Assembly (NCBI GenBank): GCA_002842215.1
Contig: PHCC01000005.1
Coordinates: 62,001-126,000, forward strand
Direction of reading: 5' to 3'
DNA: 64,000 nucleotides
Source: Betaproteobacteria bacterium HGW-Betaproteobacteria-9
GTDB taxonomy: Bacteria; Pseudomonadota; Gammaproteobacteria; Burkholderiales; Burkholderiaceae_C
A program made the position numbers and the translations under genes. Under the pieces are notes generated by a model. The model was given only the letters and a program-made list of their open reading frames with translations. It was not told the origin of the DNA and ran no database searches. Shown here in pieces: positions 39,384 through 40,796 of the stretch; the stretch's first letter is position 1, and every line of letters begins with the position of its first letter.

Positions 39384-39507
39384 GAAATGCTCAAGAGGCC
39401 AGCATGGCCGTCGAAATATACCGGTGGTGGGCGCACAACCGGTGGCGGCAACAGGGCATGGTGTGCAGCACGGCTACCGAAACCCACGCTTGATCTAAAA
39501 TCCTGAC

Positions 39508-39562
39508 ATCGCCGAGTTATTGAACTAATTGCGGGGCGATTCACAAATTCCGCTAAAGCGTT
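39508..39562 (+). ncRNA. Putative SAM-II-type riboswitch aptamer upstream of metK
   Basis: In the metK leader a stem ATCGCC/GGCGAT encloses a 21-base loop ending ATTGCGG. Exactly eleven bases after the stem comes GCTAAA, with AAAT at positions 5-8 of that spacer. This stem, ATTGC loop, 11-base spacer and GCTAAA order is the layout I recall for SAM-II/SAM-V H-type pseudoknots. GCGG in the loop can pair with CCGC just before TAAA to close the pseudoknot. A regulator of SAM synthetase would fit. It was identified by eye only. Confidence 0.6.
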
Positions 39563-39614
39563 CGCCGAACCCAGAAGACCGGCAACGCCGATCAACCAAT
39601 TCTGGAGTTTATAC

Positions 39615-40796
39615 ATGGCGAACGACTTTCTCTTCACGTCCGAATCCGTCTCTGAAGGCCACCCCGACAAGGTGGCTGACCAGATTTCCGACGCGATCCT
39701 CGATGCAATCTTCAAGCAGGACCCGCGCAGCCGCGTGGCCGCCGAGACGCTGACCAACACCGGCCTGGTGGTGCTCGCGGGTGAAATCACCACCAACGCG
39801 CACGTGGACTACATCCAGGTCGCGCGCGACACCATCAAGCGCATCGGCTACGACAACACCGATTACGGCATCGACTACAAGGGCTGCGCAGTGCTGGTGG
39901 CCTACGACAAACAATCGAACGACATCGCCCAGGGCGTGGACCACGCGTCTGACGATCACCTCAACACCGGCGCCGGTGACCAGGGTCTGATGTTCGGTTA
40001 CGCCTGCGACGAGACGCCCGAACTGATGCCCGCGCCGATCTACTACGCGCACCGACTGATGGAGCGCCAGGCCCAGCTGCGCAAGGACGGCCGCCTGCCC
40101 TTCCTGCGGCCCGACGCCAAGAGCCAGGTGACCATGCGCTACGTGGACGGCAAGCCGCACAGCATCGACACCGTCGTGCTGTCCACCCAGCACAGCCCGG
40201 ACCAGAGCGAGAACCAGCACCAGATGAAGGCCTCGTTCACCGAAGCCATCATCGAAGAAATCATCAAACCGGTGCTGCCCAAGGAATGGCTGCAGAACAC
40301 CAAGTACTTGATCAACCCGACCGGCCGCTTCGTCATCGGCGGGCCGCAGGGTGACTGTGGCCTGACCGGCCGCAAGATCATTGTGGACACCTACGGTGGC
40401 GCTTGCCCGCACGGCGGTGGCGCGTTCTCCGGTAAGGACCCGAGCAAGGTGGACCGCTCGGCCGCTTACGCCGCGCGCTACGTGGCCAAGAACATCGTCG
40501 CCGCCGGTCTCGCCAAGCAGTGCCAGATCCAGGTGGCATACGCCATCGGCGTGGCCAAGCCAATGAACATCACGGTCTACACCGAAGGCACGGGCGTGAT
40601 CAGTGACGAGAAGCTTTCCGCGCTGGTGAACGAGCACTTCGACCTGCGCCCCAAAGGCATCATCCAGATGCTGGATCTGCTGCGCCCGATCTACGAAAAG
40701 ACCGCCGCCTACGGCCACTTCGGCCGCGAAGAGCCCGAGTTCGCCTGGGAAAAGACGGACAAAGCGCAGGCGCTGCGCGCAGCGGCCGGCCTGTAA
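39615..40796 (+). CDS. metK: S-adenosylmethionine synthetase
   Basis: Makes SAM from methionine and ATP. Visible: [24 protein letters not shown] (methionine/ATP site), [12 protein letters not shown], the later [20 protein letters not shown] and [19 protein letters not shown]. 393 residues, normal length. A clear ribosome site TGGAG lies eight bases before ATG. A terminator follows about 120 bases after the stop, so it is monocistronic. Confidence 0.98.

Follow-up and report, generated by a model that had tools for sequence, protein, structure and literature searches.

What controls metK, the essential gene for SAM synthetase, was listed as unknown for beta-proteobacteria by Leyn et al. (2014) despite a dedicated comparative search (PMC4239095). 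The stretch of DNA analysed here (the window; 64,000 nucleotides of contig PHCC01000005.1 from Betaproteobacteria bacterium HGW-Betaproteobacteria-9) carries a metK gene, in whose leader a sequence-only reading had seen a SAM-II-like pseudoknot. The locus raises the question of whether a SAM-sensing RNA is the missing regulator; the element described below offers a testable answer for many families.

Anatomy of the metK leader

The putatively regulated gene, metK (39615..40796, forward strand like all features below; 393 aa), has all three SAM-synthetase Pfam domains (PF00438, PF02772 and PF02773), which confirms its identification from sequence. Ahead of it, the letters on which the sequence-only reading was built are present as claimed. 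The P1 helix is formed by ATCGCC (39508..39513) and GGCGAT (39535..39540), the loop between them ends in ATTGCGG, and an 11-base spacer, TCACAAATTCC (39541-39551), leads into GCTAAA (39552-39557), with GCGG (39531-39534) able to pair with CCGC (39550-39553) as a pseudoknot. The extent of the aptamer needs revision: the two stems stand, but a third helix had been overlooked, GAAC (39522..39525) with GTTC (39560..39563), which is P2a of SAM-II. Since the 3' strand of P2a is part of it, the aptamer ends near 39563.

The remaining segments can be matched to SAM-II base by base. The L1 triplex strand GAGTTA (39514..39519) corresponds to G8, A9, U10 replaced by G, U11, U12 and A13. The 5' strand of the P2b pseudoknot (39529..39534) consists of U20 and U21 (39529-39530) followed by GCGG, and its 3' strand (39550..39557) of CCGC followed by U44 (39554) and A45-A47 (39555-39557); TT+GCGG pairs with CCGC+AA, and U39554 is left unpaired. 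The SAM-II equivalents of 39554-39557 contact the adenine, sulfonium and methionine of SAM (PMC3764141, PMC6061858). Where SAM-II has L3 as a minor-groove strand, the window has the A-rich spacer TCACAAATT (39541..39549), the length of which varies in relatives. Judged from these letters and their covariation, we regard the predicted SAM-II-type aptamer (P1, P2a and P2b; 39508-39563) at the 5' end of the metK leader as real. A weak -10-like hexamer, TAAAAT (39496..39501), recurs as a block in same-genus leaders and faintly suggests a transcription start at about 39508, which would make P1 the 5' end of the RNA; the promoter scan of the window gave no full sigma-70 match at this block.

Covariation and detection of the element

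We tested the three helices on an alignment of 79 distinct rows, using as controls 500 shuffles and slides of the pairing partner by 1-3 columns. In total, 93.1% of cells are paired, versus 39-44% after sliding, and two-sided compensatory changes occur at 10 of the 16 pairs (141 cells); none of the 500 shuffles matched any covariation measure. All three helices of the H-type pseudoknot covary: two-sided changes are seen in five of six P1 pairs (94.9% of cells paired), in three of four P2a pairs and at two pairs of P2b (96.5% of cells paired). The fit of P2a and P2b is not circular, because both were absent from the model that produced the alignment. The window's family itself shows a shift from GAAC/GTTC with GCGG/CCGC to GAGC/GTTC with GCAG/CTGC, and P2a, GAAC/GTTC in the window, reads GAC/GTC elsewhere among the aligned leaders.

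Rfam gives nothing significant at metK, at gathering or permissive thresholds. RF00521 (SAM-II) scores 8.9 bits at the element against a gathering score of 36, which is a curated threshold and not a structural feature, and the element is absent from the genome-wide listing; RF01826 (SAM-V) and RF01727 (SAM/SAH) have zero matches in the window at E values up to 10. A covariance model (R2) made from 28 metK leaders, none of them from the window's family, finds one match only over the 64 kb, at 39506-39570 on the forward strand (53.1 bits, E=9.9e-12); the P1 pairing in this model was offset by one column, which should lower rather than raise the score. The window element is well past chance expectation. 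Two outcomes had been named in advance as speaking against the SAM-II reading: the lack of a significant covariance hit, which is what the Rfam models returned, and the lack of compensatory substitutions among relatives, which the changes counted above and the R2 match contradict. The SAM-II layout is thus supported by covariation in P1, P2a and P2b and by a match that leaves the family out.

The core CGCCGAGTTAA..GACAACTTGCGGGGCG..AAAT.CCGCTAAAGCGTC is common to metK leaders of other families in the order, with a very variable spacer length. Within the genus, 221 bases around the element are kept in 59 of 60 genomes, which, taken alone, could be neutral.

Expression platform and proposed mechanism

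Shortly after P2a, the strand AACCCAGAA (39568..39576) pairs with TTCTGG-A-GTT in the Shine-Dalgarno (SD) segment TTCTGGAGTT (39600..39609), covering GGAG at 39604-39607. Using 33 leaders from different lineages, we compared the duplex energy of the 20 bases after P2a paired to their own leader's SD region with that obtained when SD regions were taken from other leaders. Own pairs reach -13.8 kcal/mol versus -10.5 for swapped pairs (z=-6.6, 0 of 2000 permutations), the value being z=-8.0 with a longer target and z=-3.5 (2 of 2000 permutations) in the window's genus; all these z values are optimistic because related leaders are not independent. A strand just 3' of P2a that both pairs and coevolves with the SD suggests that control of metK through the element is most likely translational. 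This had been proposed from the sequence because no terminator was seen before metK, and our scan of the window likewise found no intrinsic terminator there. Terminator-like hairpins are present in metK leaders of some other families.

Several other pairings were considered and rejected. For a refolding in which the 3' strand of P1 pairs with the post-P2a GUCGCC, complementarity exceeds that of shuffled tails (0 of 300), but the between-species swap shows no coevolution (z=-0.2). Neither P1 strand gave a pairing signal with the SD in the coevolution test. A simple thermodynamic OFF switch was also discarded, as equilibrium folding leaves little of the SD unpaired in either state: by nearest-neighbour folding its accessibility is low with and without a locked aptamer, the computed value in the genus being 0.08 and rising to 0.20 with the aptamer locked.

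In the mechanism we propose, SAM would dock in the P2b/L1 triplex, with U11 and U21 facing the sulfonium, U44 the adenine and A47 the methionine end, and would lock P1, P2a and P2b. In the locked state the anti-SD strand right after P2a would cover the ribosome-binding site of metK by base pairing and lower translation, so that SAM would limit its own synthesis. For the window's genus, a candidate ON fold involves GUUC at 39560-39563, which would be contested by P2a, the hairpin GUUC-GCC-GAAC and the start-codon region. That SAM binding lowers metK translation is our best guess, because the described SAM-II and SAM-V translational switches are of the OFF type (PMC9373788, PMC6061858) and because of the logic of feedback. 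We consider it highly probable that the metK leader carries a SAM-II-class aptamer which SAM locks, letting the anti-SD strand cover the ribosome-binding site and translation fall. What holds this explanation back from greater certainty is the RF00521 score, the G at position 10, folding that gives no OFF switch and the lack of coevolution for P1-strand re-pairing.

The same leader can be read with the opposite sign in the window's genus, namely that SAM binding raises metK translation, P2a freeing the start region from the CGUUCGCC strand and loosening a sequestering hairpin. CGTTCGCC (39559..39566) is fully complementary to GGCGAACG (39617-39624; metK codons 1-4), a pairing seen in the sequence and in the MFE fold; it overlaps P2a, so in this genus the two pairings are mutually exclusive. 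Codons 4-6 of metK vary, yet at codons 2-3 the synonymous sites are unchanged in 29-30 of 30 leaders, and the rise in SD accessibility on locking goes in the direction of this reading. However, only the window's family has the start-codon complement, while the anti-SD helix is found generally; a positive feedback loop in SAM synthesis would be out of the ordinary, and the known SAM-II and SAM-V switches cited above turn translation off. We therefore judge activation by SAM unlikely, and retain repression as the preferred reading.

Ligand pocket and position 10

In SAM-II the ligand is contacted by U11 and U21 (sulfonium), U44 (adenine), A47 (methionine end) and G22 (2'-OH), and complete conservation has been reported for U10-U12, U20-C23 and G42-A47 (PMC3764141); SAM-V has the same pocket geometry (PMC6061858). 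Among 41 metK rows, U11, U12, U20, U21, G22, C23, G42, C43, U44 and A45-A47 are invariant, and the window has them too. Position 10 is the exception, being G in 39 of the 41 rows (G39516 in the window), and we file the metK element as a SAM-II variant rather than a standard member because of this replacement.

Could the change alter what is bound? A SAM-II-derived aptamer which, through G10, has come to bind SAH, a different SAM-like compound or both SAM and SAH would account for the contrast with canonical SAM-II of the same order, where 17 of 18 have U10, and altered-pocket variants are known, a SAM-I variant sensing spermidine (PMC10853860). Against it stand the unchanged sulfonium contacts U11 and U21, together with U44 and A47, in 41 of 41 rows, and the metK context. 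Moreover, strong-type elements away from metK that share the same core have U10 in 11 of 20 cases, so that G10 seems to be a tolerated change and not one that switches specificity. A changed ligand is thus still less likely than activation by SAM, and we infer from the conserved contacts that the ligand is SAM. In SAM-V the base equivalent to position 10 pairs weakly with the adenine-binding U, and a G-U pair at this position is plausible for the metK-type element. U10 of SAM-II, held to be invariant, is replaceable, as the metK rows show.

Distribution and gene context

A second model, R1, has one match or more in 129 of the 160 genomes examined in the order, and by comparison of its matches with metK coordinates, which yields a lower bound, the element immediately precedes metK in at least 47 of them, from 13 families. 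It also matches in 110 of 232 genomes of the wider class and 11 of 120 in a phylum sample. A pattern scan of named genomes gave, among the matches listed, 80 loci, all with betaproteobacterial or broader 'Proteobacteria' titles, 73 of which precede metK; named hosts include Cupriavidus, Achromobacter, Comamonas, Acidovorax, Polaromonas, Thauera and Polynucleobacter, and the closest named metK loci among the matches listed are those of comamonads (Polaromonas, Xenophilus, Hydrogenophaga; ~87%). The betaproteobacterial metK case, to which the sequence-only reading knew no well-studied parallel, is therefore real but not isolated, being part of a widespread subgroup. As in SAM-II, the gene downstream belongs to methionine/SAM metabolism. 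Going by these sequences, the SAM-synthetase mRNA, here and in much of the betaproteobacteria, has at its start an RNA knot which almost certainly senses SAM and helps to set the level of the enzyme.

Many of the weaker R1 matches inspected are canonical SAM-II before metZ/metY-like, metX and metH genes. RF00521 detects canonical elements, such as those before metX, metZ and metH, in 27 of the 60 genomes searched from the order, past its cut-off in 7 of the 60, and none of the matches listed in these genomes is a metK element; the majority of canonical betaproteobacterial SAM-II are also under the cut-off. The Rfam SAM-II model thus misses a whole branch. That the leader is a conserved SAM-II lookalike acting as an mRNA-stability element or protein-binding site would fit the silence of Rfam, but is very improbable, as three covarying helices in exact SAM-II topology with invariant ligand-contact bases are hard to explain in this way, and SAM-II relatives at the RF00521 level stand before metX and metZ in other loci of the order.

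The genome under study has a second SAM-II before metX (contig C5, locus L001, 1501-1575, reverse strand), scoring 32.9 bits with RF00521, just under the cut-off. In several genomes (L050, L057, L058, L062, L064), SAM and SAH sensors flank metK, with an SAH riboswitch (RF01057, 51-59 bits) on the same strand downstream of the gene.

Related elements at other loci

Aptamers of the metK type, in tandem at L281, occur upstream of a MoxR AAA+ ATPase - VWA protein - divergent MetK paralogue cassette at L280 (G117:C1) and L281 (G317:C37), and a MoxR gene is also found at L074, L114 and L136/L289. With the window's MetK the cassette paralogue shares 28.7% identity, and the copies in G117 and G317 share 47.7% with each other; PADLOC gave no match for the cassette, which is possibly a SAM-depletion-responsive system.

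Tandem SAM-II pairs at L096-L104 and L106-L110 (genomes G063, G085, G125, G154, G079, G167, G133, G175, G172, G090, G205, G111, G189 and G200) consist of a canonical aptamer, usually with an intrinsic terminator, followed by a metK-type aptamer without one. They precede a short ORF starting MYDC or MFDC, in most cases with a MATE-like exporter frame; the two short ORFs checked had no Pfam match. Chromobacterium, Vogesella, Pseudogulbenkiania and Silvimonas are among the named hosts that have a short ORF of this kind. Small HD-domain genes (HD_4, RelA/SpoT hydrolase-like) follow metK-type or tandem SAM-II at L282, L287 (G433), L214 (Dechloromonas) and L105 (G087), and G433 has 10 element matches, mostly tandem pairs. 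Strong metK-type or tandem elements also lie upstream of ORFs at L135/L284 (G290), L139/L283 (G441), L140 (G342), L112/L285 (G104) and L142 (G433), where the ORFs checked had no Pfam match.

It is conceivable, if doubtful, that metK-type aptamers form a SAM-II subclass of their own, in which G10 alters the edge of the pocket, and run SAM-depletion responses besides metK. If so, the MoxR - VWA - divergent-MetK cassette and the small HD-domain hydrolase genes would be activated by the destruction or depletion of SAM, for instance during a biological conflict.

Comparison with known systems

We found no published account of the metK element among the papers covered by our search, though it may already be part of expert alignments. 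A footnote to a 2022 tool paper mentions, as unpublished, that the 5' UTRs of B. thailandensis metK, metX and metZ are regulatory (PMC8814607), a remark that fits the metK element, and SAM-II aptamers paired in tandem, with mixed platforms, have been described (PMC9481103). We regard the element as a real, divergent subgroup of SAM-II, new as a variant.

Leyn et al. reported SAM_alpha only in Rhizobiales and Rhodobacterales, and a pseudoknotted 'metXZ' RNA element upstream of metX and metZ in beta-proteobacteria (PMC4239095). The metK element shares with the latter its host genomes and the pseudoknot form, and differs from it in being absent from their findings. The metK leader suggests that the metXZ element also belongs to SAM-II, and the RF00521 score of the metX leader makes it most likely a canonical SAM-II with a terminator.

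Like the SAM/SAH riboswitch (RF01727), the metK element is a small pseudoknot before metK in proteobacteria, but the core sequence is different and SAM/SAH is reported from Rhodobacterales only. With SAM-II (RF00521, SAM_alpha) it has in common the H-type pseudoknot of P1, P2a and P2b, the UU of L1, the UUGC...GCUAAA core and the SAM/methionine gene context; unlike SAM-II it is far under the cut-off, betaproteobacterial, placed before metK and marked by G10, with P2a usually GAC/GUC, a 3' linker UAAAGC and a separate anti-SD platform 3' of P2a. SAM-V (RF01826) has the same binding core and translational control via the SD region. In SAM-V, however, the SD lies inside P2a, whereas in the metK element it lies ~40 nt 3' of P2a and has a separate pairing strand, by which SAM-II is proposed to be able to act through a detached anti-SD strand.
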